A stretch of DNA of 46,550 nucleotides. Origin: Anaerofustis stercorihominis (GTDB lineage: Bacteria > Bacillota > Clostridia > Eubacteriales > Anaerofustaceae). Both the position numbers and the translations under genes were made by a program. The stretch is taken from assembly GCA_015058295.1 (NCBI GenBank), contig SVCP01000010.1, forward strand, positions 1 to 46,550. Direction: 5' to 3'. The notes beneath the pieces were generated by a model that worked only from the letters and a program-made list of their open reading frames with translations, did no database searches and was not told the DNA's origin. How positions within the stretch are numbered: the first letter of the stretch is position 1; each line of letters starts with the position of its first letter. Of this stretch, positions 141 to 28,725 are shown in pieces.

Positions 141-542
141 ATGTCAACATACAGAGTTGAACGAGTCAATCAGATAATAAAAGACGAATTATCATCTTTC
201 ATCAATTATGAAATGAACGATCCCCGTATCAAGGAGGCTGTAATCACCGTAACAGATGCAAAAGCAACTCCTGATATGAAATATGTCAAGGTGTTCGTAA
301 GCATCTACGGATGTGACGAAGAGAAGAAAAAAGAACTTCTCGGCGTACTTGACAAAGCGAAGGGATTTATGAGAAAGCATCTTTCGGGAGTACTCACAAC
401 GAGATTTACTCCGCAGATCGTTTTTGAGCTTGACACTTCACTTGATTATGCAATGCACATCGAGAAAGTGCTTTCAACGCTGGATATAAAGCCTGCAGAG
501 GAAGATGATGACGATTTTTGGGATGAATTTGATGAAGACTGA
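141..542 (+). CDS. rbfA: Ribosome-binding factor A
   Basis: A 133-residue protein beginning MSTYRVERVNQIIKDELSSF, the usual RbfA start, with the family core DPRIKEAVITVTDAKATPD and Y-K-VFVS. RbfA is a KH-type factor that binds the 30S subunit during late 16S rRNA maturation and cold adaptation. The ATG at 141 is chosen because the family starts there and GGAGGA lies upstream at 121-126, although the spacing (about 14 bases) is long; translational coupling to infB is likely. The reading frame is open further upstream to 39, but that part overlaps infB and is not family-like. The C-terminus is very acidic (EEDDDDFWDEFDED). The gene sits between infB and nrnA in one operon. Confidence 0.93.
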   Translation: MSTYRVERVNQIIKDELSSFINYEMNDPRIKEAVITVTDAKATPDMKYVKVFVSIYGCDEEKKKELLGVLDKAKGFMRKHLSGVLTTRFTPQIVFELDTSLDYAMHIEKVLSTLDIKPAEEDDDDFWDEFDED

Positions 543-3295: not shown

Positions 3296-3358
3296 TTTAT
3301 GAGTATATGTTGCAAATAATGAAATATGACGGGCTTTGAAGAAAAAAATGCGTTTTTA

Positions 3359-3386
3359 TTGAAAAATTTCTTCAAAGTTGTATAAT
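3359..3386 (+). promoter_or_regulatory. Sigma-A-type promoter for alaS
   Basis: TTGAAA (3359-3364), a 16-base spacer, and a perfect TATAAT (3381-3386). Transcription would begin near 3393, leaving a leader of about 77 bases. No T-box specifier stem or T-box sequence was recognised in that leader, although alanyl-tRNA synthetase genes of this group sometimes have one. Confidence 0.7.
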
Positions 3387-3469
3387 GAAAAAGATGTATG
3401 TTTAAATACAGATAATAAAAATCGAAAATATAAATACAAACGGTATAAATCGGGAAAGGTAAAGAAATA

Positions 3470-6112: not shown

Positions 6113-6126
6113 TTAAATTTACACAA

Positions 6127-6155
6127 ACGGGGGCTTTCGGGTCCTCGTTTTTTTT
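6127..6155 (+). terminator. Rho-independent terminator of alaS
   Basis: ACGGGGGC (6127-6134) pairs with GTCCTCGT (6141-6148), with two G-U pairs, followed by an unbroken run of eight T (6148-6155). It lies 14 bases after the alaS stop. Confidence 0.85.
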
Positions 6156-6159
6156 GTGG

Positions 6160-6278
6160 CCCGCCGCAGGCGAAACCGGCGGTGCCGGTTTCTTGTGAAA
6201 AGCGGAGCTTTTCACGCTCATCGCTGTGCGATGAGCTGCCTGCGGCGGGTATGGGCGGGGAAAGGGCACGGAGTGGGG
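6160..6278. repeat. Cloverleaf hairpin repeat with G-rich tail (family C, copy 1)
   Basis: A 12-bp outer stem, CCCGCCGCAGGC (6160-6171) with GCCTGCGGCGGG (6238-6249), encloses three perfect hairpins, each with 9-bp arms and a 3-base loop: 6172-6192, 6195-6215 and 6216-6236. A G-rich tail follows (6253-6278: GGG, GGGG, GGG, GGGG runs) that matches a G-quadruplex pattern. Related modules with the same CCGCCGCAGGCGG start and G-rich end occur at 36754-36896 and 44996-45106. It is non-coding. Its GC content is far above that of its neighbours. Confidence 0.8.
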
Positions 6279-6330
6279 CGGAAAAGCAGACTTGATTTAA
6301 TAAATTAAGTCCAAAACTTGTCCGACTGCT

Positions 6331-6359
6331 TTGCGTATACACATTTATTATGTTATAAT
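6331..6359 (+). promoter_or_regulatory. Promoter for the small membrane peptide / acetyltransferase pair
   Basis: TTGCGT (6331-6336), a 17-base spacer and TATAAT (6354-6359). It lies 27 bases upstream of the ATG at 6386. Confidence 0.65.
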
Positions 6360-6385
6360 GTACAAAATCGTTTTCGGAGAAAAAA

Positions 6386-6550
6386 ATGGGTTTGTTGGCT
6401 GTTATTGTTGCAGGTTGTGTCATACTTTATGTATTAGTGGAAATGTGCGAAAAAAGCGGTATGAACAGAAAAGACGAATACTACGAAATTCCATCAAGGT
6501 ATAATGATGCAGAAAATTTTTTATCTGATGAAGCGGACAGAAGGAAGTAG
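6386..6550 (+). CDS. Small single-span membrane protein of unknown function
   Basis: A 54-residue protein. The N-terminus (MGLLAVIVAGCVILYVLVEM) is one hydrophobic helix, followed by a charged tail (CEKSGMNRKDEYYEIPS, ending DEADRRK). The start has GGAG 7 bases upstream and a good promoter just before it. The stop is 10 bases before the next gene, so the two are probably co-transcribed. I do not recognise a family. The tail is likely cytoplasmic, since the hydrophobic part has no preceding positive residues and Arg/Lys follow it; that topology is inference. Confidence 0.65.
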   Translation: MGLLAVIVAGCVILYVLVEMCEKSGMNRKDEYYEIPSRYNDAENFLSDEADRRK

Positions 6551-6559
6551 GCAGACGGG

Positions 6560-7081
6560 ATGCAGGAAAAACTTGTATGCAGATGGGCAGTATCGGGAGA
6601 TATTGACCGCATAAGAAAAATGTATTATGATGTGATCGATCATATGCCGCAGACTGTGTATTTTGACTGGGAAAAAGGCAGATGGCCTTCAGACGAATAT
6701 CTTGTAAGTTCCATTGACTGTAAAGAGCTGTATATAGGTGAATCCGGTGGAGAGATCGTATGCGCCGCAATACTCAACCACGAATATAACGAAGGTTATG
6801 ACGAAGCACCCTGGCAGATTGATGCAGATGAAAACGATACACTTATGGTACATACTCTCGCCGTATCTCCGTACTATCACGGAAAGGGGATTTCCGTACA
6901 GTTTGTCAGAAGCATAATCGAAGCCGCAAGAGAAAAAAATCTCAGGGCTGTGCGCCTTGATATTATCGTGGGAAATGTTGCCGCAGGGAAGCTTTACGAA
7001 AAGTGCGGATTTAAATTTATTCAGCATTTTGTATCGAGGGTAAAGATAGAGGAAGTATACTTTTTTGAGTATGTGTTGTGA
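6560..7081 (+). CDS. GNAT-family N-acetyltransferase
   Basis: A 173-residue protein with the GNAT fold signature. Motif A is HTLAVSPYYHGKGISVQF near residues 96-113; the acetyl-CoA pyrophosphate loop (usually Q/R-x-x-G-x-G/A) is seen as YYHGKGI, a slightly divergent form. Motif B (LRAVRLDIIVGNVAAGKLYEKCGF) follows. GNAT enzymes move an acetyl group from acetyl-CoA to an amine; the substrate here cannot be told. A weak GGAAG site lies upstream of the ATG, close behind the small membrane peptide gene. A hairpin at 7163-7188 may end the transcript. Confidence 0.85.
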   Translation: MQEKLVCRWAVSGDIDRIRKMYYDVIDHMPQTVYFDWEKGRWPSDEYLVSSIDCKELYIGESGGEIVCAAILNHEYNEGYDEAPWQIDADENDTLMVHTLAVSPYYHGKGISVQFVRSIIEAAREKNLRAVRLDIIVGNVAAGKLYEKCGFKFIQHFVSRVKIEEVYFFEYVL

Positions 7082-7162
7082 ATCCGGAGAGTGAATTGAG
7101 AAGTATTCACCTGAAAAATATGTCTTTCATCTGAACTTTATGCACAATCTATGGTTAAAGAA

Positions 7163-7188
7163 GGCCCGTCAAAACAATTTGACGGGCC
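7163..7188. terminator. Bidirectional hairpin between convergent genes
   Basis: GGCCCGTCAAA (7163-7173), loop ACAA, TTTGACGGGCC (7178-7188): a perfect 11-bp stem. It sits between the acetyltransferase (plus) and the pseudogene (minus). The T-rich tail is better on the minus strand (TTCTTTAA), so it probably serves the minus-strand unit mainly. Confidence 0.6.
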
Positions 7189-7227
7189 GTGCTCATTTAG
7201 TGGCAGTGTGTGCATAATCTATATAAC

Positions 7228-7855
7228 TCAGGGGTATGAATACTGTACGAGAGTCATATAATTTGTTGCATGAATTGCCGGAGTAATCAGGAATCCTGAG
7301 ATTTTACTGCCCTGATCATAGTTTTCCTGATATTTAAGAGAGATATTCCGGGCAGTAGATGTGCCACTGATGCGGATCATTGTACTCATATGCATACTCT
7401 ACCAACCCGTCACACCTGCATGTGCTAAGCTGGTTTGGCTGAACTTTACTGCCATTCATATTGGACGTATTGTATTTAATCTGCCAGCCCATATCGTAGG
7501 CAATATTGTACGCATCCAAGTCCAATGCAGTATCGACAACAGCATCTCTCTGTGCATCTGTCATCCCCGGCATCGGGCGGTATACTCCGACAAAATCATC
7601 CTGCGGATGCAACCCCATAAATGTTGATCATGATACAGCCGATACCGTAGTTCCGCTTGTTGCGCGAACTACTGAATTTCCGCTTGATGAAGATGCATAT
7701 CTCATCAACCCCGCATGAAGGTCCAGGTATGTATTTTTATACCTGTATACCTAAAATGCCTTGCAGTTGGTTGCTGCAGAAACACTTTGAACTATCATAA
7801 ACAGTATGCACAAAATGAGCAGTAAGATCGTTATTTTTTTAGAGAATCTTTTCAT
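7228..7855 (-). pseudogene. Decayed gene for a secreted protein, possibly an NlpC/P60-like hydrolase
   Basis: Reading down from ATG 7855 there is a very good site (GGAGGT, 7861-7866) and a clean signal peptide (MKRFSKKITILLLILCILFM, then IVQSVSAA). The same frame then hits TAG after ATNCKAF, continues as VYRYKNTYLDLHAG to TGA after TTVSAVS, and continues again as STFMGLHPQDDFVGVYRP through CRCDGLVEYAYEYND to TAA at 7334. Beyond this, another frame continues sensibly (KYQENYDQGSKISGFLITP) to TGA at 7228-7230; the shift falls in a CT repeat. The CDGLVEYAYE segment resembles the Cys-nucleophile motif of NlpC/P60-like hydrolases, but this is weak. Two different stops plus a shift suggest decay, unless the assembly is wrong here. 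Confidence 0.6.
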
Positions 7856-7858
7856 ACG

Positions 7859-9004
7859 TTACCTCCATACGGAAATATATTCATTTTCATCCGCTATTTT
7901 CGGATAATGACCATCAAATGTCTCCGGATATTGTATTGTCCATCCGGCAGAACGGTCTTTATCGAGTTTTTTCTGAAGTTCATCCACGATCTCTTTGTAA
8001 GGTATATATTTTGTCGTTGTGAGTAAAAGCTCAATATCTTCTGTTTTATCGCTGTTTTTGGCAAGTTCCAGTAATGAACGACAATTTTGTCTTATGACTT
8101 TACGACAAATATAAGCACTTGTCTCACTGTCAAGCCGGTTCACAGACAGGAAGCCTTCTTTCCCCAGAATATATTCTGCTGAAATTTTTGTTCCTGTTTC
8201 GGCAAGATTCAAGACCGCTACATGCACAGGGTTGTTCCATAATTCTTCTGAAATACGTCCGGCGTAATTTTCGTGAATATAGATGCACAGTTGTGCGAAC
8301 TTTTCTGTTTTGTCAAAGAGCTCATCATCACTTCTCAGGGCAGTATTTTCCTGTAACTCTGTTTTTTTAGCCATAAGCGATGCACAAAGCTGTTCCGGGC
8401 TGAAATTTTCATAATCCGCAAGAACCTTGTCTGCAATTTTTTCTGCTCCGGAAGAGTCATATATCCACAGATGTTTTAATGCATGATATGCCACTCTCTG
8501 ATTTTCGGTTGTGAAAAACAAAGATTCGAGCAGTGGATAAACCTGCGCATTTTCGTCGGGAAGTGCATAAATTGCTTTTATGCGCACATCTTCGTCTTCA
8601 TCTTCGTCGATGAGCATCTTTGCAAGAGAAGTAAAATCAGCCATATTTCCCATTTTCTCATCATAAAGGTCAAGCATCGTGCTGCGTACAAGCGGGTTGA
8701 GGGATGAATTCCCTGCCTGTTTCAGAAGAAATTCTCCGGAAATGCTGTCGAGGCGGAGTCCGAGCTCAAGAACATGGTATAAACCGTCGTTTTCTCCGGA
8801 TGATGACATAAGAACATTCATTTCGTCAATTATTTCTTCTACTGTCATATCCGTAAACTGCTGCATAAGCTCAGATTGTGTATCAGCCTCAGACATTCTG
8901 TTGATAATCCGTGCAAACTGCGGAATCACAAAGGCCGATGCACTGATTAAGAGTGCAAAGACCAAAACTGTAACCAATATTTTTTTGCGCTTATTGATTT
9001 TCAT
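7859..9004 (-). CDS. Membrane-anchored or secreted HEAT-like repeat protein
   Basis: A 381-residue protein. The N-terminus (MKINKRKKILVTVLVFALLI, then SASAFVIPQ) is a signal peptide or uncleaved anchor. The remainder is a string of alpha-helical units such as NPLVRSTMLDLYDEKMGNM and DEDEDVRIKAIYALPDENAQ, spaced roughly 35-40 residues apart in the manner of HEAT/armadillo-like repeats. Such proteins usually act as binding scaffolds. No catalytic motif is seen. AAAGGA lies 7 bases upstream of the ATG. Its stop (7859-7861) overlaps the binding site of the downstream pseudogene, so the two form one operon. The partner's decay may leave this gene without its original role. Confidence 0.7.
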   Translation of the reverse strand: MKINKRKKILVTVLVFALLISASAFVIPQFARIINRMSEADTQSELMQQFTDMTVEEIIDEMNVLMSSSGENDGLYHVLELGLRLDSISGEFLLKQAGNSSLNPLVRSTMLDLYDEKMGNMADFTSLAKMLIDEDEDEDVRIKAIYALPDENAQVYPLLESLFFTTENQRVAYHALKHLWIYDSSGAEKIADKVLADYENFSPEQLCASLMAKKTELQENTALRSDDELFDKTEKFAQLCIYIHENYAGRISEELWNNPVHVAVLNLAETGTKISAEYILGKEGFLSVNRLDSETSAYICRKVIRQNCRSLLELAKNSDKTEDIELLLTTTKYIPYKEIVDELQKKLDKDRSAGWTIQYPETFDGHYPKIADENEYISVWR

Positions 9005-18007: not shown

Positions 18008-18844
18008 ATGAAGGAAAAAACGATAACAGAAGAAAGAATGAATTTATTCCGGGAGTATCTTCTGCAGGAAGAGAAAAGTGAAGCTACGGTGGAGAAATAT
18101 ATGCGGGATATCAGATTTTTCGCGCATTTCGCAGGAGAGGAAGCTGTCACAAAGGATATAGTAAAGCGTTACAAGGAGCATCTTATAAATGCGGGATATG
18201 CGGTGAGTTCGGTGAATTCCATGCTTGCGGGGCTGAACAGCTTCCTGTCATTTTTCGGGTGGGGAGAATGTAAGGTGAAAAACATACGTCAGCAGAGGGA
18301 TGTGTACTGCAGGGAGGAGAAAAATCTGACGAAGGAGGAATATCTCAGGCTTATCGGGGCGTGCGGGAAAAACTCACAGCTGAAGCTGATAATTCAGAGC
18401 ATATGTTCTACGGGGATAAGGGTGTCTGAGCTGAAATATTTCACGGTGGAAGGACTGAGAGAGGGAGAAATCACTGTGAGGTGCAAGGGGAAGGTCAGGA
18501 GAATACTGATCCCGTCGAAGTTAAGGAAGATGCTCATGGGGTATGCCAAGAAATGCGGGATAGCTTCCGGGTGCGTTTTTGTGGGGCGGAGCGGGAAAGC
18601 GCTTCACAGGACGCAGATATGGAGAATGATGAAGTCATTGTGCAGGAAAGCGGGAGTGGAGGAGAGCAAGGTATTTCCGCACAATCTGAGGAAATTATTT
18701 GCGAAGACGTTTTACAGGATTGAGAAGGACATTGCGAAGCTTGCGGACATATTGGGGCACAGCAGTATAAACACTACGAGGATATATATTATGAGTACGG
18801 GGGTTGAGCATCTGAGGAAAATTGAGAAGCTGGGGCTGGTGTGA
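18008..18844 (+). CDS. Tyrosine recombinase (XerC/D-like; candidate DNA invertase)
   Basis: A 278-residue integrase with an N-terminal SAM-like core-binding domain (about 1-100) and a catalytic domain that is complete: Arg near 138 (STGIRVSEL), Lys near 163 (CKGKVRRI), HNLRK near 225-229 (His, Arg), LGHSS with His near 251, and the Tyr nucleophile near 260 (TTRIYIM). It cuts and rejoins DNA through a 3'-phosphotyrosine. GGAGGAAATT gives a strong start. It is not next to phage genes. The palindromic inverted repeats at 19010 and 19291 downstream are plausible targets, and the surface-protein operon lies beyond. C. difficile RecV is a known example of an orphan recombinase flipping surface-gene promoters; the parallel here is inference. 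Confidence 0.92.
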   Translation: MKEKTITEERMNLFREYLLQEEKSEATVEKYMRDIRFFAHFAGEEAVTKDIVKRYKEHLINAGYAVSSVNSMLAGLNSFLSFFGWGECKVKNIRQQRDVYCREEKNLTKEEYLRLIGACGKNSQLKLIIQSICSTGIRVSELKYFTVEGLREGEITVRCKGKVRRILIPSKLRKMLMGYAKKCGIASGCVFVGRSGKALHRTQIWRMMKSLCRKAGVEESKVFPHNLRKLFAKTFYRIEKDIAKLADILGHSSINTTRIYIMSTGVEHLRKIEKLGLV

Positions 18845-18887
18845 TGCTTGGCTGAATGAACGAATACTGAGGTTTTTTTCTATTTGT

Positions 18888-19000
18888 CAATCCCTCCCGA
18901 CACGGCAGAGCCGTGCCACCCTCCCTTACTAAGGGAGGGCTTGGACAATCCCCCCCTGCAAAATCGAAGATTTTGCTTTCTCCCTTTACATAAGGCGGCA
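18888..19000. repeat. TCCCTCC-type hairpin repeats (family A, two units)
   Basis: Unit 1 (18888-18940): CAATCCCTCCC, hairpin CACGGC-AGA-GCCGTG, then CCCTCCCTTACTAAGGGAGGG, itself a hairpin. Unit 2 (18945-19000): ACAATCCCCCC, hairpin GCAAAATC-GAA-GATTTTGC, then a degenerate CTCCCTTTACATAAGG. The same layout recurs at 19321-19375 and 44441-44496, with the same or other central hairpins. It is non-coding. The 18845-19009 gap holds nothing else I can name. Confidence 0.75.
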
Positions 19001-19009
19001 TAAAAAAAT

Positions 19010-19031
19010 AACATAATTCACATTATGTTAC
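19010..19031 (+). repeat. Left inverted repeat (recombination site candidate)
   Basis: Identical over 22 bp to the reverse complement of 19291-19312. It contains 8-bp palindrome arms around TCAC; here the arms extend to 9 bp. Confidence 0.85.
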
Positions 19032-19077
19032 ACTTTCTCGTTATAAGTACGCAGATGCACCTATGTCATCGATTACG

Positions 19078-19106
19078 AGTATACCACTGAAGGACAAAAA
19101 ATGCAA
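19078..19106 (-). promoter_or_regulatory. Promoter inside the invertible segment, facing left
   Basis: On the minus strand: TTGCAT (19106-19101), exactly 17 bases, TATACT (19083-19078). Start would be near 19071, about 40 bp inside the left repeat. If the segment flipped between its repeats, the -10 would sit at 19239-19244 on the plus strand and transcription would run through the right repeat into the operon starting at 19485. Confidence 0.65.
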
Positions 19107-19290
19107 GTACCAACAGTGAAAAAACGGATTTAAATTAATTGTAAAGTAAATTGATACAATTCATCTTACATATGACATCAAAACGACACCCTTAAATCAT
19201 TTATTTTTAACAATGATTATAAAGGGTGTACCTTTATATGCTCTTTGAATTGCAATTCATTTATTAGTCGTATTTTCACTGATGCACAAA

Positions 19291-19312
19291 GTAACATAAT
19301 GTGAATTATGTT
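19291..19312 (-). repeat. Right inverted repeat (recombination site candidate)
   Basis: Exact inverted copy of 19010-19031, with palindrome centre GTGA. The flank beyond it (GCGTGGGG) does not match the flank of the left copy. Confidence 0.85.
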
Positions 19313-19320
19313 GCGTGGGG

Positions 19321-19422
19321 ACAATCCCTCCCTGAACGGCGGAGCCGTTCTTTCTCTCCCTTACTAAGGGCGGGCCGACCCTCTCAGTCAGCTATGCTGA
19401 CAGCTCTCCCAGGGGGTGAGCC
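19321..19422. repeat. Hairpin repeats upstream of the surface operon (families A and B)
   Basis: 19321-19375 is a family A unit: ACAATCCCTCC, hairpin GAACGGC-GGA-GCCGTTC, then CTCCCTTACTAAGGGCGGG. 19376-19422 is a family B unit: CCCTCTCAG, hairpin GTCAGC-TAT-GCTGAC, AGCTCTCCC. A close copy of B is at 44616-44649. Transcripts from a flipped promoter would carry these hairpins in their leader. A weak plus-strand promoter (TTGTAT 19428-19433, 19-base spacer, TATAGA 19453-19458) follows and may give low basal expression. Confidence 0.65.
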
Positions 19423-19484
19423 TGTACTTGTATATGATGCCGTATGGCTACATATAGACAATCTTGAAGAAAGGAGAAAATAAT

Positions 19485-20195
19485 ATGAAGACAAGAAATA
19501 AGGCTTTGCTCACAGTACTTTGCGCTATTTTGCTGGTAGTTGTTTCTGTAATGGGAACACTCGCGTACCTTACAGATGATGATTCTGTAGTAAATACATT
19601 TACAGTGGGAAAAGTTGAGCTGATACTTGACGAAACAGATGTGAAAACTGACGGAACAAAGGATACAAATGAACGTGTGAAAGAAAACGAATATCATCTT
19701 ATTCCGGGACACACATACATCAAAGATCCGACAGTAACAGTAAAAGCTGACAGTGAAGATTGCTATGTAAGAATGTTTGTTGAAGTTAAAAACCTCAATC
19801 AGCTTACAGAAGTTCTCACAGCTGAAGAATACTACGGAGCATATGGAAACGGTAAGGTATTCCTTTTACAGACACTTTGTGTAGATGAAGAAGGTAATCT
19901 GACATGGGATGCTGATAAATGGGCATTTGCAGGTTACACAGAAGCAACAGCTGAAGGTGGTGCTGTTACAGGTACATATGAATTCCGTTATGTAGAAACT
20001 GCTGATGACAAAGTTGCAAAAGCTGATACAGACACAGTTCTTCCGGCATTGTTCACAGACATCACACTTCCGGGCGCACCGTTTGACAACGAAGAAATGG
20101 TAGGTCTTGAAACTGTAAAGATCAATGTATATGCACAGGCTATCCAGGCTGACGGATTCGACACAGCTGCAAAGGCATGGGCAGAATGGAACTAG
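19485..20195 (+). CDS. SipW-type (TasA/camelysin-like) surface protein 1
   Basis: A 236-residue protein. The N-terminus is a SipW-class signal peptide: basic start, hydrophobic core, then GTLAYLTDDD near residues 24-33 and NTFTVGKVEL near 37-46. Proteins with this signature are cut by the archaeal-like signal peptidase SipW and assemble as extracellular fibres (TasA) or related matrix proteins. The body is an acidic beta-rich domain with PTVTVKADSEDCYVRMFVEV, a motif shared with its neighbours. AAGGAG lies 8 bases upstream of ATG 19485; an in-frame TTG at 19464 is less likely. It is the first gene of a seven-gene operon running to 27631. Confidence 0.82.
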   Translation: MKTRNKALLTVLCAILLVVVSVMGTLAYLTDDDSVVNTFTVGKVELILDETDVKTDGTKDTNERVKENEYHLIPGHTYIKDPTVTVKADSEDCYVRMFVEVKNLNQLTEVLTAEEYYGAYGNGKVFLLQTLCVDEEGNLTWDADKWAFAGYTEATAEGGAVTGTYEFRYVETADDKVAKADTDTVLPALFTDITLPGAPFDNEEMVGLETVKINVYAQAIQADGFDTAAKAWAEWN

Positions 20196-20232
20196 TTTTT
20201 ATTGCATGAACTGATTAACGAAAGGAAGAGTT

Positions 20233-20991
20233 ATGAAAAAGCTTAAGAAAACATTACTGGCATTGATCCTTGTATCGCTTGCTGTATGCGTTGTGGGAAC
20301 AACACTTGCGTGGCTTACTGATGACACCGAAGACGTTGTAAACACATTTTCACCGAGCAACATTGACGTAAAACTCGAAGAAACACCGAATACGAATACT
20401 GACGGCGAAGACGGAAATGACGCATGGTTCGGAAAGATGGTTCCCGGCTGGAAGCTTGACAAAGACCCGAAAGCATGGGTTGAAGAAGGAAGCGAAGAAT
20501 GTTATCTGTTTGTGAAAATCGGAACAAACGAAGGTTACAGCATTGAAGCAAAAACTGATGCAAACGATAAAGTAACATACCATATCGGAAATGTTGCAAA
20601 TGGTGAATACATCGTTTACGCAGTAGATTCGCAGTGGGAAGCTGTTCCGAATACTGAAAATGTATTCTATATGGTTATCGACGAAGAATCCGAAATGGGT
20701 GAAGGCGAAAACAAATACAACATTCTCGGTGCCGGTACATACGTTGACCCGATGGGCGGAACTGTAGATGTAACGATCAGCTGGGATGACAACCAGGTGG
20801 CTACAAAACCGTCTGTAACAGAACAGATGATGGAAGAATTGGAGGATCCGGCAAAGTATCCGCAGCTCACATTCAAAGCTTACGCAGTACAGCTCTGGAA
20901 AACAAACAAGCCGGCTGCAGGTGCAACAGATGCTGAAATAGAAGCAGCACAGTTCACTCCGGCAGAAGCATGGGCACTTGCGCAGCAGTAA
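20233..20991 (+). CDS. SipW-type surface protein 2
   Basis: A 252-residue protein with the SipW-class signal VGTTLAWLTDDTEDVVNTFS near residues 21-40. The body carries the neighbour motif in the form DPKAWVEEGSEECYLFVKIG near 81-100. This matches the position and spacing seen in surface protein 1, so the two are diverged paralogues. A Pro/Thr/Asp-rich acidic segment (NTNTDGEDGND) follows the signal. AAAGGAAGAG gives the start, 37 bases after the previous stop. Expected to be a fibre subunit or accessory protein outside the cell; this is inferred from the signal type and operon. Confidence 0.8.
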   Translation: MKKLKKTLLALILVSLAVCVVGTTLAWLTDDTEDVVNTFSPSNIDVKLEETPNTNTDGEDGNDAWFGKMVPGWKLDKDPKAWVEEGSEECYLFVKIGTNEGYSIEAKTDANDKVTYHIGNVANGEYIVYAVDSQWEAVPNTENVFYMVIDEESEMGEGENKYNILGAGTYVDPMGGTVDVTISWDDNQVATKPSVTEQMMEELEDPAKYPQLTFKAYAVQLWKTNKPAAGATDAEIEAAQFTPAEAWALAQQ

Positions 20992-21073
20992 GGTGCTCCG
21001 TAACAATTAAGTTGTAAACGGCGATGATCAGGCCGTTTATATAAAAATTTATTTCGAAAGGAAACAAAAAGAC

Positions 21074-22000
21074 ATGAAAAAGAAAACAATGGCAATCGTT
21101 CTTGTTGTATGTCTTCTCGCTACAGCTCTTGTAAGCGGAACACTTGCATACTTCACAGATACAGATGAAGCCACAAACGTATTCACAATGGGTAACGTTC
21201 AGATCGTACAGAACGAACAGCAGCGTGTTCTTGGTGAAACAGAAGCAGATACAGATCATGAATGCACACAAATACAAGGAGATGGACTTGAAACATTCGA
21301 AGACAATAAGGTAGCATTCCCCGCTGTTCTTAACAAACTTCAGCCGAAGGAAGATATCACAGTTAACGGTTACGATTTCACAATCCGTAAACTCGAAGGT
21401 AACTACATTGACAAAATCGTTAACGTATACAACACAGGTTCAAAAGATGCTTACGTTCGTACAATCATCGCTATCCCGAATATGAACGGATATGATGATT
21501 CTCTGGATGCTTCTGAAAATCCGTTCCACTGGAACTATCTTGATGCTACAGACTTCGAAGATGGTGTAGGTTGGGACTGGAATGGTTCTGATGATGCAGA
21601 TGTTGCTCCTCAGTTAGATAAAGTTCCTGACGTAACAATCGGTGGTAAATCTTATGATATTTATGTAGCTACATACAATGAAGCTCTTGCGCCGGGAGCG
21701 TTCACATCTCCGTCAATGGTAGGTTTCTATCTCCATGACACAGTTAACTACGGTGAACATACTGAAGTTGTAAACGGTAAGGAAATTTACCATGAAGAAG
21801 GTTACTTCTTCATAAAGAAAGATGGTTCTGTAAAATCTCTTACAGACTGGATCAAAGCTGATGAAGATGGCATTGCTACACTTGATATTCTCGTAGCTAC
21901 ACAGGCTGTTCAGACAGAAGGCTTTGATGATGCTTGGGAAGCACTTGATGAAGCATTCAAAGACATCACAAAGACAAACCATCCGTGGATTGAAGAATAA
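21074..22000 (+). CDS. SipW-type surface protein 3
   Basis: A 308-residue protein with the signal SGTLAYFTDTDEATNVFTMG near residues 21-40, the closest of the set to the TasA/CalY consensus. The body has IVNVYNTGSKDAYVRTIIAI near 115-134, the family's shared 'variably phrased N-T-G-x-x-D-A-Y-V-R' motif, and a Trp-rich segment (DGVGWDWNGSDDAD). GAAAGGAAAC precedes the ATG. Codon use is strongly biased to the same preferred codons as alaS, suggesting that this is an abundant product, possibly the major fibre subunit. A structured spacer (22033-22097) follows before the next gene. Confidence 0.82.
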   Translation: MKKKTMAIVLVVCLLATALVSGTLAYFTDTDEATNVFTMGNVQIVQNEQQRVLGETEADTDHECTQIQGDGLETFEDNKVAFPAVLNKLQPKEDITVNGYDFTIRKLEGNYIDKIVNVYNTGSKDAYVRTIIAIPNMNGYDDSLDASENPFHWNYLDATDFEDGVGWDWNGSDDADVAPQLDKVPDVTIGGKSYDIYVATYNEALAPGAFTSPSMVGFYLHDTVNYGEHTEVVNGKEIYHEEGYFFIKKDGSVKSLTDWIKADEDGIATLDILVATQAVQTEGFDDAWEALDEAFKDITKTNHPWIEE

Positions 22001-22032
22001 TTTAATTTTAATTTAACTTAAAATTACATACC

Positions 22033-22097
22033 GCCCTCTCGATGAGAGGGCATATGAGAGTGGCCGGAGGGGATTTCCTTTCGGATATTCTCATATG
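22033..22097 (+). other. Tandem stem-loops in the surface operon
   Basis: A hairpin GCCCTCTC-GAT-GAGAGGGC (22033-22051) is followed by a long stem-loop with arms CATATGAGA (22051-22059) and TCTCATATG (22089-22097) closing inner CCGG/CCTTTCGG pairing. Neither has a T tract. They may set transcript stability or processing between protein 3 and the downstream genes, or attenuate. Confidence 0.55.
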
Positions 22098-22167
22098 AGA
22101 GAAAAGGTGTGAATTTACAACTATTTTTGTGCAACATTTTTATTTCAACAACGGAAAGGGGAAAAGT

Positions 22168-22731
22168 ATGAAGAAGAAAATACTTGTTTTATCTTTCGTC
22201 ATGCTATTGTTCGCTGTTGCGACAGGCAGTACACTCGCTTATTTCAATGCGGAGGATACGGCTCACAACGTCATCACATCCGGCGGCGTGGATATTGATC
22301 TGACAGAGTGGAGTGACGAAGATATGACGATTCCTTATCCGACGGAGAAGGTTCCGGTTATGCCGGGGACAACTGTGGATAAGGTGGTTGTTGTAGAGAA
22401 TCTTGAGGACGATGCATGGATTCGTGCATCATATGTCGTTACGGTTTTCGACAGCAAAGGCGAAGTGATGGATCTTGACAAAGACGAGCTTGACAGGATC
22501 ATACATATCGCAACAGGCGAAGACTGGACAGAAAAAGACGGCTGGTTCTACTACAACAAGTCAGTAAGCAGAGGCGAAGTAACAACTCCGCTGTTTTGTG
22601 AAGTGGTCTTTGACGGCCCTAACATGACGAACGAATATCAGGGCTGCGAATTCACTATCGACGTGGAAGCAGATGCAGTTCAGTCAGCAAACAACGGTGC
22701 AACAGCACTGGAAGCTGCAGGCTGGGAGTAA
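22168..22731 (+). CDS. SipW-type surface protein 4
   Basis: A 187-residue protein. Signal: GSTLAYFNAEDTAHNVITSG near residues 20-39. The body has VMPGTTVDKVVVVENLEDDA then WIRASYVVTV, the same fold core as the others (partner 26322-26900 has VVIKNTGDTDAFIRAAIVVT). These two smaller proteins are most alike and bracket the adhesin gene. AACGGAAAGGGG precedes ATG 22168. The stop is 11 bases before the adhesin gene, so they are tightly coupled. Likely an accessory subunit joining adhesin and fibre; that role is inference. Confidence 0.78.
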   Translation: MKKKILVLSFVMLLFAVATGSTLAYFNAEDTAHNVITSGGVDIDLTEWSDEDMTIPYPTEKVPVMPGTTVDKVVVVENLEDDAWIRASYVVTVFDSKGEVMDLDKDELDRIIHIATGEDWTEKDGWFYYNKSVSRGEVTTPLFCEVVFDGPNMTNEYQGCEFTIDVEADAVQSANNGATALEAAGWE

Positions 22732-22742
22732 GGAGGTAGAGT

Positions 22743-25700
22743 ATGAATAATTTCAAACGAATTTTAGCTGTACTTTTGTGCCTTCTTATGGTTGTTGCGG
22801 TGATGCCGGATATTTTTGCCGGAGAAGAAATTCCCGATGTACCTGAGTGCGATAAGGGCTGTGGTGAAGGTGTTATCTACTCACACAATAATGACTGTGC
22901 TGTAAAGGTATTTTACAGAAATCTGTATGACGAAAAAACAGCGGCAGAACTTTATGAGTTGTGGGATTCTCTCCATGAAGATGTTCAGAATTTCTATCTG
23001 AACGATTATTCGTGGAACAGCAAGATCAGCAGTCGTGAAAAACGAGCTGAACTGGTTTCTTATCTTGACGGCACGGCTACACCTCCGACAGGTGGGGATG
23101 AAGAAGATCCGGAAATTCCCGATGTGCCGGTGGATATCGAAGGTGAAAATATTGAGATCAGCGGGAAAATTCCTGCGGGATCGAAAGTTGTGATGGGAGA
23201 AACTTCCGAAAAAGTCGCAGAAATGCTTAAAGAAAAGCTTCCTCCTTGCGAAGATCATCACTACACAATCGAGTTCTTTAATATCAAGATACACGACAAA
23301 AACAATAAAGAGTGGCAGCCGAAAGAAGCTGTAACAGTTACTCTTACGCTTGAAGCATTCCTCGGGGATAACACAAACGTGGAAATTTTCCATATTCTCG
23401 ATAATGAAGATGCGATCAAAAAAGCGGAAGACAACGAAAGAACTGTTGAATCTTTCAAAGATGATGACGGAAATGATGTTTATTATACGATCATGTCTTC
23501 AGACAATGGGGAAGTAACCATCATTGATGAACACACAGTCTCCTTTGAAACGGATTCTTTCTCTGATTATGCAGCACGTGCAGGGGGGTATGCGCTCGAT
23601 GCATCTGCATACAAAAGTGACAGGGAGGTATTCTGGGACGTTGCGGAATCTAAGGGAAGCAGTTATGGTCAATATACAGGCAGTGCGACCAGAATAAAAT
23701 CCGTGTATTTTAATGGTAATCCAACTACGGGAAAGGTAGTTAAGGGAAATTCTGGCGGAAAACCTTCAGTAACTGATAAACGGTATGATTGGAGAGCATC
23801 CGGAGTTTCAGATTATGCGGAATCAGTAGGTACATATTATTCAAGCAATACTACTAGAGAACTTACGATTGTTCCCGGTGACGGATACTACGTTAAGAGA
23901 GTTATCATTGCATGTACTGCAAAGGAATTGATTCCGGGATATGGACCTTCAACAGTTATTAGTGATCCTTATGGCTGCGGAACATGGCTTGCAGGAAACC
24001 AATATGACCAGATACTCAATTTTGAGTATACAGGTGCGGTTACTATTGATGTTCCGAGGCTTGCGTTCTGCCATTTGAGTAATAACTCTCCTTCTTTTAC
24101 GAATGCTTATTTTATTCTTATTGAAGTAGGTGCATTGCCCAGTCCGTTGTATGTAGAGTATAACTATGGAGATATAGTAAAAAATCTTACAAGTGCTACA
24201 AATAAAAACGCATTTACCGGATCATCAAAATGGCTTGCTGAGTATAAAGATGCATCAGGTAATGTATTAAATGGCGGTAATTACGATCCGGATACACAGT
24301 TTACGCAGTTCAGATATAAGACTAGCGGAGATGATATTGATAAACAAGCGCAGCAGGCAGCACAATGGAAACATTATGCGAACGTAATCACTCCGGCGGC
24401 TATTGCTGCAGCAGAAGCTGAAGGCTATTTATTTAAAGGCTGGTATGCGGAGTATTATACAACATGTAATGCGTCTACACCGGGATCAAATAACAACAAT
24501 TATACATATACATTTGGCGGAGAGAGGATCTCTACAGCAGACTATCAACCGGGCGATCAGGTGCCGCTTTCACGTCATGTGAAATTAACTGCAAAATGGG
24601 AAAAAGCGGAGACGTATACGTTGACTGTAAATAAGGTTACGGTAAATGATACGGATACCAATGCTGAATTTACATTCAATGTAGAGATCGGAAATAAGAA
24701 AGAAAGCTTTACGCTGAAAAACGGTGAATCCAAAACGTATACGGCGATTAAAGGTACTTCTTATAAGGTCGAAGAAGTTACAAACAGCAATTACACAACC
24801 AAAGTCGATGGCGCACAGAGTGGTACTCTGAACAGCAATGTGACTGTAACATACACGAACACAAGAAAGGTTGCGGATGTTACGGTTGAGAAGAAAATCG
24901 TGAAGGAAGGTAATCCGGATCACGTAGGAAGTAACTTTACGTTCAGTGCGAAGCTCTGGGCAGACGGCAACAAAAACAGACAGATTCCGTTCCCGGAAAC
25001 GATCGGAACAGGAATCACACGAAGCTCTGACGGACTTACAGCAACATTTACGCTTGAGACGAACGGAAGCAAAGTGACATTCAAGAACCTGCCTGTAGGT
25101 GCGGTGCTGGAAGTTACGGAAACAAATGTCGAGAATGCTGACGAAACCACAAACGACTGCAGTCCGTCAAACAACGGAAAAACAGCTACATATGCTATAG
25201 AATCCACAACAGCAAAGACTATCACTTTCACAAACACATATGTGCAGAAGGTCGGTTCTGTAAAGGTTGTGAAGAATCTTGTGGACAATGCTTATAACAA
25301 AGACTTGATCAGAAAGTTTGAATTTACAGCAACGATGAAAGACGGTTCTGCATTTACTGACGGAAGCAAAGAAATCACGTTCAGTCTCGGAGACGGTGAA
25401 TCAAAACAGATCGATAACATTCCTATCAATTCGACGGTTGTGATCACAGAAACTGCAGTTGATGGTTATACAACAACAAATACTGCAGGAAACGGCAGCG
25501 TAGCGGAAGTTACTGTAACACAGACACTTCACACAGTTACTTTCACAAATACACGCATCACAAAGAGCCTGACCATCACGAAAAATGTTGTGAACACAGG
25601 CGAAGAACTTGAACTGATAAAAGATAGAGTTTATCCGATGGTTCTTGAGATAGACGGAAGTGTATATGCAGGTCCGGCGAAGAAGAACGGCAGTGCTGAA

Positions 25701-26309
25701 ACGGTTGCAGGCGGAAATCTTTCACTGAAGAACGGTGATACATACGTGATCGAAAATATTGCGGTCAACAGCAAGTATTCAGTAACAGAAAACATTCAGA
25801 GTGTAACAGCTCCGGACGGATTCGAATACAAGGCTCCGATGTATGCTGTCGGAGAAGGTGCTGCGACAGCGGCTCCGGTTGTTGACGCAAGCCTTACGGA
25901 TAATGCAACAGTAACCGTTACAAACGAAATCAAGGGCATCTACGGATATCTTGTGATCTCCAAAACGGGAATTGATGAGCTGGATCACAAAGCAGGTGAT
26001 GAATTCCAGAACACGATCTATCGTATTCAGTCACTTGATGCGAACGGAGATGTTGACGACAGACTCGATATGCAGGTAACTATTACATACAATGGATCAG
26101 TCCAGATAAACAAGATCCCTGTCGGAAAATATAAAGTTACGGAAATCACCGACTGGTCATGGAGATATGAACCGGAAGAAGATGTAGTTGATGTTACTGT
26201 AACAGGCGGAAAGACGGCTGAAGCTCCGTTTGAGAATGTACGAACAAACAAATATTGGCTCTCCGGTGACTGGTATGCAAGAAACTGGTGGGGCGAAGCT
26301 GCGGAATAA
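22743..26309 (+). CDS. Large isopeptide-type surface adhesin (1188 residues)
   Basis: Conventional signal peptide (cut near IFAG, residue 26), a Cys-containing N-terminal module (CDKGCGEGVIYSHNNDC), a linker, a domain ending SFETDSFSDYA near 265-275, a unique region to about 560, an InlB-like FKGWYAEYY...LTAKWE unit (about 560-620), then five tandem DUF5979/Cna-B-like domains starting near 622, 707, 836, 938 and 1062. Each has the Lys (VNKV, VEKK, VVKN, ITKN, ISKT), Glu (VEEV, VTET, ITET, VTEN, VTEI) and Asn (YTNT, FTNT, FTNT, VTNE, FENV) expected for internal Lys-Asn isopeptide bonds. It ends WYARNWWGEAAE with no sorting signal or membrane span, so it must be held by partners. GGAGG precedes the ATG. 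Expected role: tip or shaft adhesin. Confidence 0.82.
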   Translation: MNNFKRILAVLLCLLMVVAVMPDIFAGEEIPDVPECDKGCGEGVIYSHNNDCAVKVFYRNLYDEKTAAELYELWDSLHEDVQNFYLNDYSWNSKISSREKRAELVSYLDGTATPPTGGDEEDPEIPDVPVDIEGENIEISGKIPAGSKVVMGETSEKVAEMLKEKLPPCEDHHYTIEFFNIKIHDKNNKEWQPKEAVTVTLTLEAFLGDNTNVEIFHILDNEDAIKKAEDNERTVESFKDDDGNDVYYTIMSSDNGEVTIIDEHTVSFETDSFSDYAARAGGYALDASAYKSDREVFWDVAESKGSSYGQYTGSATRIKSVYFNGNPTTGKVVKGNSGGKPSVTDKRYDWRASGVSDYAESVGTYYSSNTTRELTIVPGDGYYVKRVIIACTAKELIPGYGPSTVISDPYGCGTWLAGNQYDQILNFEYTGAVTIDVPRLAFCHLSNNSPSFTNAYFILIEVGALPSPLYVEYNYGDIVKNLTSATNKNAFTGSSKWLAEYKDASGNVLNGGNYDPDTQFTQFRYKTSGDDIDKQAQQAAQWKHYANVITPAAIAAAEAEGYLFKGWYAEYYTTCNASTPGSNNNNYTYTFGGERISTADYQPGDQVPLSRHVKLTAKWEKAETYTLTVNKVTVNDTDTNAEFTFNVEIGNKKESFTLKNGESKTYTAIKGTSYKVEEVTNSNYTTKVDGAQSGTLNSNVTVTYTNTRKVADVTVEKKIVKEGNPDHVGSNFTFSAKLWADGNKNRQIPFPETIGTGITRSSDGLTATFTLETNGSKVTFKNLPVGAVLEVTETNVENADETTNDCSPSNNGKTATYAIESTTAKTITFTNTYVQKVGSVKVVKNLVDNAYNKDLIRKFEFTATMKDGSAFTDGSKEITFSLGDGESKQIDNIPINSTVVITETAVDGYTTTNTAGNGSVAEVTVTQTLHTVTFTNTRITKSLTITKNVVNTGEELELIKDRVYPMVLEIDGSVYAGPAKKNGSAETVAGGNLSLKNGDTYVIENIAVNSKYSVTENIQSVTAPDGFEYKAPMYAVGEGAATAAPVVDASLTDNATVTVTNEIKGIYGYLVISKTGIDELDHKAGDEFQNTIYRIQSLDANGDVDDRLDMQVTITYNGSVQINKIPVGKYKVTEITDWSWRYEPEEDVVDVTVTGGKTAEAPFENVRTNKYWLSGDWYARNWWGEAAE

Positions 26310-26321
26310 GGAGGCACAAAG

Positions 26322-26900
26322 ATGAAAAAGACGAAAATCAAAGCAATTTCGCTGATGATCTGCCTTCTTATGGTTGTCGGCGTTGTTGTCGGAGGAACGG
26401 TTGCTTATCTGAAAGCGGAAAGCGACGAGGTTGATAATACATTTACTCCGTCAGAAGTAACGACGGATGTTGTTGAAGATACAGAATCGTTTGAAAAAGA
26501 AGGAATCAAGAAAGATGTTGTAATCAAAAACACAGGCGACACGGACGCATTCATCAGAGCAGCGATAGTTGTGACATGGCAGGATAAACAGGGCAATGTT
26601 TACGGACAGAAGCCTGCGGAAGGTGATTATACCATTGATATGGGTGATGAAGGCTGGGTTAAAGGTTCAGACGGATTTTGGTACTATACAAGCGTTGTTC
26701 CTGCAAATGGAAGCACAAAAAATCTGATTGATACTGTCACATGCACAGGCACAGCGCCGGATACAAACTACAAACTTTGCGTTGAAATCCTCGGTTCAGG
26801 TGTTCAGGCAGGACCTGCAGCAGCGGTTGAAGCGTGGTCAGATGGCGTTGCGGAGCTTGATGAAGGCTGGCAGACGATTACAGTACAGGAGGTTGAATAA
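26322..26900 (+). CDS. SipW-type surface protein 5
   Basis: A 192-residue protein with signal VVGGTVAYLKAESDEVDNTF near residues 22-41, then KKDVVIKNTGDTDAFIRAAI near 64-83. This is the clearest example in the operon of the shared 'NTGDTDAFIRA' core. GGAGGCACAAAG lies upstream of the ATG, 12 bases after the adhesin stop. Its stop shares a base with the next ATG (TAATG), so the sortase-anchored protein is translationally coupled to it, hinting that the two products interact. Function in fibre assembly is inferred from the signal type and neighbours. Confidence 0.8.
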   Translation: MKKTKIKAISLMICLLMVVGVVVGGTVAYLKAESDEVDNTFTPSEVTTDVVEDTESFEKEGIKKDVVIKNTGDTDAFIRAAIVVTWQDKQGNVYGQKPAEGDYTIDMGDEGWVKGSDGFWYYTSVVPANGSTKNLIDTVTCTGTAPDTNYKLCVEILGSGVQAGPAAAVEAWSDGVAELDEGWQTITVQEVE

Positions 26901-27631
26901 TGAAAAAGCTTAGAAAGATCTCCTCAATTCTGATAGTTATGATGCTGATTCTCAGCATGGGAAGCGTATTTGCGGCAGATTCAACGATCACATACAACGG
27001 CAAGGGCTTCGAAGACAAATTCGGTTTTGCTCCGGGAAGCGAATATACGGATACAGACCTTTTCGACGGATTCAGGAACGTAATGCCCGGTGATCAGCTG
27101 GAAGAAGTGATCACTTTCACAAATGAAGCAAAGACATGCGACAAGATCAATGTGTATATGAAAGCTGTTGCACATGACGAAGAAGGCAATCCGCTTACAT
27201 ATGACGAAGCTTTCGAAGATGTTGACGGCAAAGATCAGGAACACATCGACGGACAGCGAGATGAAACTGTTGCGACGATGGCAGAATTCCTGCAGCAGCT
27301 CACGATGCGCATTTATAACGGCACAGAGCTTATCTTTGACGGCACACCTGACGAAGAAGGAGCACTTGCGGATTTCGTGAAGCTTGGTGAGCTTACAAAA
27401 GGCAAGAGCATTGTTCTGACAGTTGAGCTGGATGTGCCAATTGAGCTTGACAACAGATTTGCGCACAGAGTAGGCGAAGTTGACTGGGTATTTATGGTTG
27501 AAGAAATCATAGAAGAAGCACCTGATACAGGCGACAACGCAAACCTGCTGATTTACGGCGGAATATTCGCAGTATCTGTTGCAGTGCTGTTTGTAGTGGT
27601 TCTTAAAAAGAAAAAGAATGAAAATGTCTAA
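26900..27631 (+). CDS. Sortase-anchored surface protein (operon anchor)
   Basis: A 243-residue protein with an ordinary signal peptide (cut near VFA, residue 25). The C-terminus is a cell-wall sorting signal: APDTGD near 207-212, a hydrophobic span (LLIYGGIFAVSVAVLFVVVL) and KKKK. The motif is the variant xPxTG form used by many Clostridia sortases. The body carries DQLEEVITFTNEAKTCDKIN and VILTVELDVPI-type strands, with a fold like the SipW-type proteins although its signal is not of that class. It is the only gene in the operon with a wall anchor, so it may tie the whole fibre to peptidoglycan. No sortase gene is present in the window. Confidence 0.82.
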   Translation: MKKLRKISSILIVMMLILSMGSVFAADSTITYNGKGFEDKFGFAPGSEYTDTDLFDGFRNVMPGDQLEEVITFTNEAKTCDKINVYMKAVAHDEEGNPLTYDEAFEDVDGKDQEHIDGQRDETVATMAEFLQQLTMRIYNGTELIFDGTPDEEGALADFVKLGELTKGKSIVLTVELDVPIELDNRFAHRVGEVDWVFMVEEIIEEAPDTGDNANLLIYGGIFAVSVAVLFVVVLKKKKNENV

Positions 27632-27735: not shown

Positions 27736-28695
27736 ATGCAAACAGGTGAAAGATTCGGAAGGTGGAGCGTTGTATCTGCCGAGGTTATAGATAAAAAGGT
27801 GTTGTGCCGTTGTGATTGTGGAACAGAGCGTTATGTCCTGGAAAGAAGCCTTAAGCATGGCGGTTCGCAAAGTTGTGGCTGTCTCAGAAGAGAAAGATCG
27901 GTGGAAGCTGTTTCTCATGATCTGACGGGGCAGACATTCGGAGAGCTTACTGTATTGAAAAGGCTTCCGGATACATCGAGAGGCGGAGTAAGGTGGCTTA
28001 CAAAATGCTCCTGCGGAAATGAGTATGAAGTTCTGGGAACTCTTCTTGTCAATGGCAGGAGAACTCACTGTGCGTCGGAAGTGCATAAACAATATCCGTT
28101 TTCCGACATAAGCGGTCGTACGTTCGGAAGGCTTACAGCGATCAGGGCGCTTGATGAGAGAGATAAAAACGGATATGTAATGTGGCACTGCGTGTGTTCC
28201 TGCGGTAATGAAATTGATGTATCATACAACAGTCTTTTGTATTCAAATATGCAAAGTTGCGGCTGTATGAAAAAGGAGCACAGTGAACATCTGAAGGATT
28301 ATCTTACTCATGTGGCAGGGACTTCTGTTGATATACTCAAGAGCAAGAAAGTACCTTCTGATAATACGACAGGTTATAAAGGTGTATATCTTATCCGCGG
28401 TAAATATGTTGCAAAGATAGTCTTTCAGAAAAAAGCCTATAATCTTGGCTCATTTGACTGTATTACCGATGCGGCTGAAGCAAGGAAGGAAGCAGAAGAA
28501 CTTCTTTTCGACGGTATGGCAAAGCATTATGAAATGTGGAAGGTCCGTGCGGAAAAAGATCCTCAGTGGGCAGAGGAGAACCCTGTGGAAGTAATCGTCA
28601 ATCAGAGACGTGACAAAAAGCTGTCCGTATCATTCCTGCCGGATATGAGTGAGATGATGTCGTTGGAAAAATATATGAAAAGTGCTGTTTCATAG
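27736..28695 (+). CDS. AP2-domain protein with three Cys-rich modules
   Basis: A 319-residue protein. Three similar N-terminal modules of about 55 residues each have a G-x-x-FGRLT/FGELT start, then a C-x-C-x-C-G cluster and a second Cys pair: LCRCDCGTERYV...SCGC (near 23-53), WLTKCSCGNEYEV (near 90-102; its second pair is reduced to HCAS) and WHCVCSCGNEIDV...SCGC (near 153-178). An AP2-like domain follows (TGYKGVYLIRGKYVAKIVFQ near 213-232, then LGSFD and a helix). Bacterial AP2 domains bind DNA, often in HNH homing endonucleases, but no HNH motif is seen. It may regulate or have invaded this site. There is no strong ribosome binding site before ATG 27736. Confidence 0.7.
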   Translation: MQTGERFGRWSVVSAEVIDKKVLCRCDCGTERYVLERSLKHGGSQSCGCLRRERSVEAVSHDLTGQTFGELTVLKRLPDTSRGGVRWLTKCSCGNEYEVLGTLLVNGRRTHCASEVHKQYPFSDISGRTFGRLTAIRALDERDKNGYVMWHCVCSCGNEIDVSYNSLLYSNMQSCGCMKKEHSEHLKDYLTHVAGTSVDILKSKKVPSDNTTGYKGVYLIRGKYVAKIVFQKKAYNLGSFDCITDAAEARKEAEELLFDGMAKHYEMWKVRAEKDPQWAEENPVEVIVNQRRDKKLSVSFLPDMSEMMSLEKYMKSAVS

Positions 28696-28702
28696 CAGTA
28701 TC

Positions 28703-28725
28703 AGCCCGTATATCGGGCTTTTTTT
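28703..28725 (+). terminator. Terminator of the AP2-domain gene
   Basis: AGCCCG (28703-28708), loop TATAT, CGGGCT (28714-28719), then a T run. Confidence 0.85.

Follow-up and report, generated by a model that had tools for sequence, protein, structure and literature searches.

A probable phase-variable, SipW-dependent TasA-type fibre locus with a tail-docked adhesin in Anaerofustis stercorihominis

The window analysed here is a 46,550-nucleotide stretch of Anaerofustis stercorihominis DNA (assembly GCA_015058295.1, contig SVCP01000010.1, positions 1–46,550). Open reading frame calls on the window place seven genes, W1 to W7, on the forward strand at 19485–27631, comprising four small TasA-like proteins (W1–W4), a large adhesin (W5), a BsaA-like member of the TasA superfamily (W6) and a protein with a sorting signal (W7). 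A tyrosine recombinase gene and a segment bounded by inverted repeats precede them. A preliminary description, made from the sequence alone, had presented this stretch as a seven-gene operon of SipW-type, isopeptide-domain and sorting-signal proteins; all seven genes and all three kinds of protein are present, although the unit so drawn is incomplete, as it also includes the upstream switch and a probable eighth gene. The locus probably encodes a phase-variable, SipW-dependent fibre of the TasA type, with an adhesin docked by its tail and a wall-linked base of TasA fold.

The small proteins are W1 (19485–20195, family F1), W2 (20233–20991, F2), W3 (21074–22000, F3), W4 (22168–22731, F4) and W6 (26322–26900, F6), all on the + strand; the listed frame of W4 opens at 22129, with the MKKKIL start at 22168. 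SipW-type signals were scored with the NCBIfam model TIGR04088 (cut-off 19 bits), which is passed by W1 (32.3 bits), W3 (37.3 bits) and W4 (25.9 bits) and not by W2 (13.4 bits) or W6 (11.9 bits). The five SipW-class signals first proposed are thus clear in W1, W3 and W4, and the SipW-type nature of W2 and W6 is supported by homology to their paralogues. Across the whole genome (1.83 Mb in 91 contigs), TIGR04088 has only ten matches, all in four loci, so the signals found here are not a matter of chance. The BsaA model TIGR04090 (curated cut-off 60 bits) is passed neither by W6 (56.9 bits) nor by W4 (34.2 bits). Among the small proteins, only W3 passes the camelysin family PF12389 (23.6 bits; cut-off 22.5 bits), with a match limited to the first ~46 residues. 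The strict form of an NTGxxDAxxR core, previously said to be common to the small proteins and to suggest co-assembly, is present in two of the five (W3 and W6) and is variable within families, and it was rejected as a mark of co-assembly.

W7 (26900–27631, +; family F7) has an ordinary Sec signal and an xPxTG sorting signal. Its PDTG motif (residues 208–211; 27521–27532, +) lies within a TIGR01167 match at residues 208–240 that scores 22.2 bits against a cut-off of 15.9 bits, bearing out the PxTG signal first read in the last gene; the PF00746 score of 19.0 is just under that family's cut-off of 20. Profile–profile alignment with hhalign joins family F6 to F4 over the whole length (99.9%, E = 1.6e-32) and F7 to F4 less strongly (95.7%, E = 9.7e-9); the F1–F7 assignments come from iterated profiles that contain their own members, which inflates the scores, and the gene order is independent of them. 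The AlphaFold model of W7 (predicted local distance difference test score (pLDDT) of 68) has TasA as its top structural matches (Z-score of 7.7 over 132 residues and root mean square deviation of 3.7 with PDB entry 5of2; Z-score of 7.6 with 5of1), and matches the fibre form of TasA with a Z-score of 6.1 (8aur). As sequence profiles and structural match agree, a TasA-like fold is predicted for W7 with moderate confidence.

The small proteins appear TasA-like by profile. For W6, the one among them for which a structure prediction was run, the AlphaFold model (pLDDT of 78) is an Ig-like sandwich, and its comparison with the PDB gave only weak matches to Ig-like folds (Foldseek E of 0.02 or higher; best VIA Z-score of 5.9), TasA not among them; this was taken neither in favour of TasA membership nor as evidence against it. 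Profiles of F1, F4 and F6 searched against PDB sequences gave nothing significant, the best match being the archaeal bundling pilus protein AbpX (E = 0.076), which is a hint only. Folds unrelated to TasA or CalY, the outcome that would have told against the initial description, are not what emerged, given the TasA match of W7 and the profile relations of the small proteins. An alternative is that the latter are not fibre subunits but camelysin-like (M73) proteins, either soluble or bound to the matrix, with W7 a stand-alone wall protein. Their best Pfam name is indeed Peptidase_M73 and the W6 model lacks a TasA match; the Pfam match, however, spans only the signal and the first ~50 residues, the SipW-dependent relatives TasA, CalY and BsaA polymerise (PMC9674648, PMC13082335, PMC7395162), and the best structural match of W7 is TasA itself, which makes this alternative very unlikely compared with a fibre.

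The same genome holds a paralogous operon. On contig C77, the order is sipW, C1, C2, C3, C4, C5 (1,243 residues), C6, C7 and a sortase gene, and C1–C7 repeat the order of W1–W7. Sequence identity between the pairs is 52% (W1), 39% (W2), 35% (W3) and 60% (W4), 33% over the last ~140 residues of the large protein, and 69% (W6) and 66% (W7). The ~170-bp leaders of W1 (19310–19484, +) and C1 are homologous up to the right repeat arm of the window; beyond that point the window has its switch and C77 has sipW. Leader homology and parallel gene order together indicate that the two operons are duplicates, with sipW and the switch in the corresponding place. Of the five exact genomic copies of a short GC-rich element with the core CTCCCTTACTAAGGG, four flank the upstream regions of the two operons: around the switch in the window (18886–18985 and 19320–19400) and around sipW on C77 (L011, 2290–2400 and 3455–3530; L and G numbers are our handles for loci and genomes). 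Its copies are placed as though they marked an exchange point.

Two further contigs carry related genes. The cassette on C11 is the third in the genome and is truncated: two F4-type genes and an F1-type gene precede a large protein that runs off the contig (L012, 1–3126, − strand) and in which a stretch (DDLWVFIDGKLVLDIGG) resembles fibro-slime/PA14-type domains. A single gene with a SipW-type signal lies on C43.

Gene calls and profile searches find neither sipW nor a sortase gene in the window operon. The genome has one SipW-type peptidase above the family cut-off, on C77, and sortases on contigs C61, C68 and C77. As both genes lie only elsewhere in the genome, the window operon would rely on SipW and sortase supplied in trans, and the self-sufficient operon that could be read into the initial description is not supported. 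These data also bear on whether the locus encodes a classical sortase-polymerised pilus to which the SipW-type proteins are accessories. Sortase pili typically feature CnaB domains, tip-like proteins with VWA heads and an xPxTG protein, and a sortase gene closes the C77 operon; against this stand the confinement of the sorting signal to W7, its absence from W5 and all the small proteins, and the missing sortase gene in the window operon. We regard such a pilus as highly improbable here.

The adhesin W5 (22743–26309, +) is a 1,188-residue protein with an ordinary Sec signal. Its repeated stretches match DUF7601 (2.4e-31) and DUF5979 (2.5e-25), and it has five CnaB-like domains (residues 625–710, 711–835, 838–940, 941–1065 and 1068–1169) with Lys, Glu and Asn at CnaB positions, in agreement with the five isopeptide-type domains first noticed. 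Domains 1–4 (residues 625–1065; 24615–25937, +) each contain candidate Lys/Glu/Asn isopeptide residues. Over the five domains, the predicted Lys–Asn cross-links are K631–N706, K717–N831, K844–N936, K947–N1061 and K1074–N1165. The tail module (25944–26306, +) is composed of a CnaB/SpaA-like domain with the motif WSWRY (PF17802, 1.1e-5) and the terminal segment WLSGDWYARNWW. The N-terminal part of W5 has no Pfam match, and sequence and profile checks of the whole protein detect no sorting signal and no signal of the SipW type.

W5 and C5 are related only over their tails. The W5/C5 tail was searched against 391 genomes of the class, together with named genomes, with a four-row alignment for the contig scan; this led to further loci, and within Clostridia the strong matches fall in SipW/TasA-like loci. 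The module stands at the end of about 20 otherwise unrelated adhesins. Their last ~110 residues can be aligned as a CnaB/SpaA-like domain with an invariant W-S-W-x-Y, after which comes a terminal stretch carrying W-L and N. The heads that precede it are VWA domains in L066, L069 and L034, a PMP-type β-helix in C77 and the CnaB array in W5. Tail-type adhesins have a conserved WSWxY...WL...N module under exchangeable, unrelated heads, an architecture first recognised in this analysis. A 403-residue protein elsewhere (L120; G000:C17:39432-39671) matches the CnaB domain of the tail weakly (E = 1.7e-7) and has no terminal WL segment.

Having neither a sorting nor a SipW signal, W5 must be held to the cell by something else, and the simplest explanation is that its tail docks on the fibre; as an F6 gene stays adjacent to the tail adhesin gene, F6 is the best candidate for the docking partner. 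Among 20 named tail loci, three of which belong to the genomes that also supplied L066, L069 and L073, TasA-like genes lie near the tail protein in 16 and an F6 gene lies directly 3′ in 12; of the four without TasA-like genes, two are contigs of less than 4.5 kb. Strong tail matches outside the class (L113, L114, L115 and L117) have the same neighbours, and weak ones are ordinary CnaB proteins (for example, L116 and L118). The conserved core order is F4, tail adhesin, F6, F7.

Alternatively, W5 could be off the fibre, as an independent secreted adhesin that binds wall or matrix and is co-transcribed with a TasA-type matrix operon, its tail being a C-terminal CnaB variant. Two loci, L088 and L090, have tail adhesins without TasA-like neighbours, and the tail domain grades into the ordinary SpaA/CnaB domains of the weak matches. 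However, the WSWxY and WL...N tail is kept while VWA, β-helix and CnaB heads exchange, and in most loci it tracks sipW and TasA-like genes and a directly downstream F6. This alternative is unlikely. The tail-bearing proteins of L088 and L090 (G399 and G254, rumen-type genomes) are 2,130 residues long and could serve to show what the tail does in other settings.

Neighbourhoods of SipW peptidase genes, fetched from 50 genomes of the order, mostly contain a large secreted protein together with between two and four TasA-like genes; a sorting-signal protein of the F7 type is often encoded there as well. The search for the same gene order in other Clostridia thus found it repeatedly, and homologues are repeatedly co-located; Merdimmobilis hominis An559 (L095), a relative that can be cultured and is not a pathogen, has this layout. 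The preliminary description had held that the fibre and isopeptide-adhesin strategies are normally seen apart; since the set of large adhesin, TasA-like proteins and sorting-signal protein recurs around sipW in the order and in other Clostridia, and occurs twice in this genome, that view is wrong. On sequence grounds, the recurrence of the gene order in many related bacteria indicates a conserved system rather than a chance mixture, and probably a genuine type of surface fibre that has been little described. In one genome of the same genus, a locus (L041, G001; 162–8727) has sipW, TasA-like genes and no tail adhesin, and encodes an 825-residue protein with both SipW-type and sorting signals, a candidate fused or alternative anchor.

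Upstream of W1 lies a gene for a XerA/XerC-like tyrosine recombinase (18008–18844, +; PF00589, 2.7e-24), which is the only match of its kind in the genome (E ≤ 1e-10) and probably a dedicated invertase. It is followed by a 259-bp segment (19032–19290, no strand) between 22-bp inverted repeats: the left arm (19010–19031, +), AACATAATTCACATTATGTTAC, is 22 nt long and 100% complementary to the right arm (19291–19312, −). The core of the repeats, ACATAAT-N4-ATTATGT, has exactly two copies in the genome. In two other genomes, G155 (L074) and G832 (L084), a recombinase of 57–60% identity is followed by an inverted pair with the same core, of which no exact copies exist elsewhere in either genome; N4 varies between genomes and is mirrored within each pair. 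The layout, inverted repeats next to a recombinase and upstream of a surface operon, is that by which an inverton is recognised. In L074, there are three switch sites (1536–1558, 1599–1621 and 1853–1875) and the left arm lies in a 63-bp direct duplication, so that deletion as well as inversion would be possible there.

A second switch type, with an integrase gene inside a segment of ~1.4–1.5 kb bounded by inverted repeats, occupies the same place in L028–L030, L066, L069, L073 and L083. Between G040 and G036, the flanks are collinear at about 99% and the integrase-type segment is reversed at 99.5%; this is a natural inversion. Many SipW loci have neither recombinase nor repeats, and a switch upstream of these operons is therefore recurrent and not obligatory.

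A simple promoter scan of the window segment found nothing convincing. In a relaxed scan, the best promoter-like sites lie on the − strand (19069–19040 and 19106–19078) and read away from the operon; their score is not significant, 114 of 500 shuffles being as good. In L084, a perfect TTGACA-17-TATAAT is equalled by none of 500 shuffles, and the site in L074 by 29 of 500; both read away from the operon as well. The assembly may thus show the OFF orientation. A stable hairpin lies within each of the three short switch segments (window, L074 and L084); that of the window (19186–19229; RNA fold of −15.1 kcal/mol, z = −3.97) is a possible terminator or attenuator.

The repeats might instead form no live switch: the recombinase could be a relic, or the segment could be a regulatory region with a hairpin that is transcribed in a single direction. 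The hairpin is consistent with this, as are the non-significant promoter score, the single assembly of the species and the absence of such repeats at the paralogous C77 operon. Against it, the 22-bp repeats are perfect and stand beside a dedicated recombinase, arrangement and core recur in two other genomes, and an analogous switch is inverted between two close relatives. An inactive switch is accordingly quite unlikely, and phase variation remains our preferred reading.

Downstream of W7, a gene for an AP2/Cys-cluster DNA-binding-type protein (27736–28695, +) is probably the eighth of the operon: there is no terminator between W7 and this gene, and the good intrinsic-terminator-like site comes only after it, at 28703–28719 (+), where the eight-gene unit would end. 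Its product is 32–35% identical to the proteins encoded immediately 3′ of W7 homologues in L066, L069 and L073; for two of these, the match to the AP2 domain, at about 5e-7, narrowly misses the Pfam cut-off. In at least four genomes, an AP2/Cys-cluster gene is kept 3′ of a W7-type gene, and a further homologue, with an internal stop, lies at G000:C56. If made from the same transcript, the AP2-like protein could feed back on the switch.

From these elements, we infer how the locus would work. The recombinase would flip 19032–19290 and thereby join a promoter to the eight-gene operon or cut it off. In the ON state, W1–W4 and W6 would be exported, and the SipW candidate encoded on C77 would cleave the signals of W1, W3 and W4 at least. 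These five proteins would polymerise into a fibre by donor-strand exchange, as TasA does, in which the N-terminal strand of one subunit is inserted into the next (PMC9674648). A sortase from another locus would attach W7 to the wall, where W7, as the base, would accept or donate the first strand, a strand that TapA provides in the TasA fibre (PMC10151520). W5 would be held on the fibre through its C-terminal module (WSWxY domain and WLSG...N tail), most likely by W6, and would display an interchangeable adhesive head.

Several of the observations given above weigh against this reading of the locus. W2 and W6 fall short of the SipW-signal model, and the Ig-like model of W6 does not match TasA. 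The W7 model has a pLDDT of only 68 and TasA Z-scores below 8, and by Foldseek alone CUB-domain proteins come slightly above TasA. The promoter score of the window segment is not significant, a single assembly has this switch, and both recombinase and repeats are missing from many SipW loci. Finally, L088 and L090 carry tail adhesins away from TasA-like genes.

Tentatively, these loci may represent a distinct and widespread class of Gram-positive pilus in Clostridia, with a TasA-type shaft, an F7 base, an F6 adaptor, a head-swapping tip adhesin with a kept docking module, repeated inversion control by unrelated switches and possible AP2-like feedback. A literature search that left most subscription papers outside its reach returned no paper on this operon layout or on a switch before a SipW operon. 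A large inverton survey ties Clostridia inverton groups to tyrosine recombinases, and its main text names no such operons.

TasA-type fibres are known mainly as Bacillus biofilm matrix. Here and in related loci, candidates can be named for the base (W7) and for the adaptor (W6), and the swappable adhesin has a docking module that is easy to recognise; fibre fixation and adhesin carriage can thus be addressed by simple gene deletions and by exchanging tails. The tail, being conserved, also allows SipW-dependent adhesins to be found by sequence where their present annotation is limited to DUF7601, DUF5979 or VWA. The switches point to on–off control of such fibres in gut Clostridia, in the fashion of type 1 fimbriae.

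Among known systems, the shaft and its processing have precedents; what sets this locus apart is an adhesin that is exchanged while its docking module is conserved, an anchor with a predicted TasA fold, and a coupling to DNA inversion that recurs. Like the proposed system, the sipW-bsaABCRSD operon of Clostridium perfringens (PMC7395162) has a SipW-dependent TasA-superfamily protein (compare W6), several secreted partners, heterogeneous expression and a sortase-independent polymer; BsaA forms SipW-dependent polymers that resist sodium dodecyl sulfate and formic acid and need no sortase (PMC7395162). The window differs in having sipW in trans and an upstream invertible switch, and in encoding a CnaB-array adhesin and an xPxTG TasA-fold protein. 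The tapA-sipW-tasA operon of Bacillus subtilis and the sipW-calY-tasA/CapP system of Bacillus cereus (PMC9674648, PMC10151520, PMC13082335) have in common with the proposed fibre SipW-processed β-sandwich subunits, a donor-strand fibre and a helper that starts it; in contrast, no TapA or CapP homologue was identified at the window locus, which has a candidate base (W7) with a sorting signal, a giant tail adhesin and DNA-inversion control. Sortase-assembled pili of the SpaA/RrgA type resemble the system in their CnaB domains, in the VWA heads of its relatives and in the anchoring of the base to the wall by a sorting signal, whereas the shaft subunits and adhesin of the window have no sorting signals and the operon has no sortase gene. 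The fimS switch of Escherichia coli type 1 fimbriae (314 bp, PMC9993118) resembles the proposed switch in its tyrosine recombinase, in a promoter segment of ~260–310 bp and in its control of a donor-strand fibre operon with an adhesin, although the structural genes show no homology and the window is Gram-positive and has no usher. The F-ENA endospore appendages (PMC11952670), which also occur in Clostridia, have the layout proposed here, one end of the fibre bearing a dedicated anchor and the opposite end an adhesive tip fibre; they differ in belonging to another subunit family, in their place on the spore surface and in their collagen-like anchor and tip.

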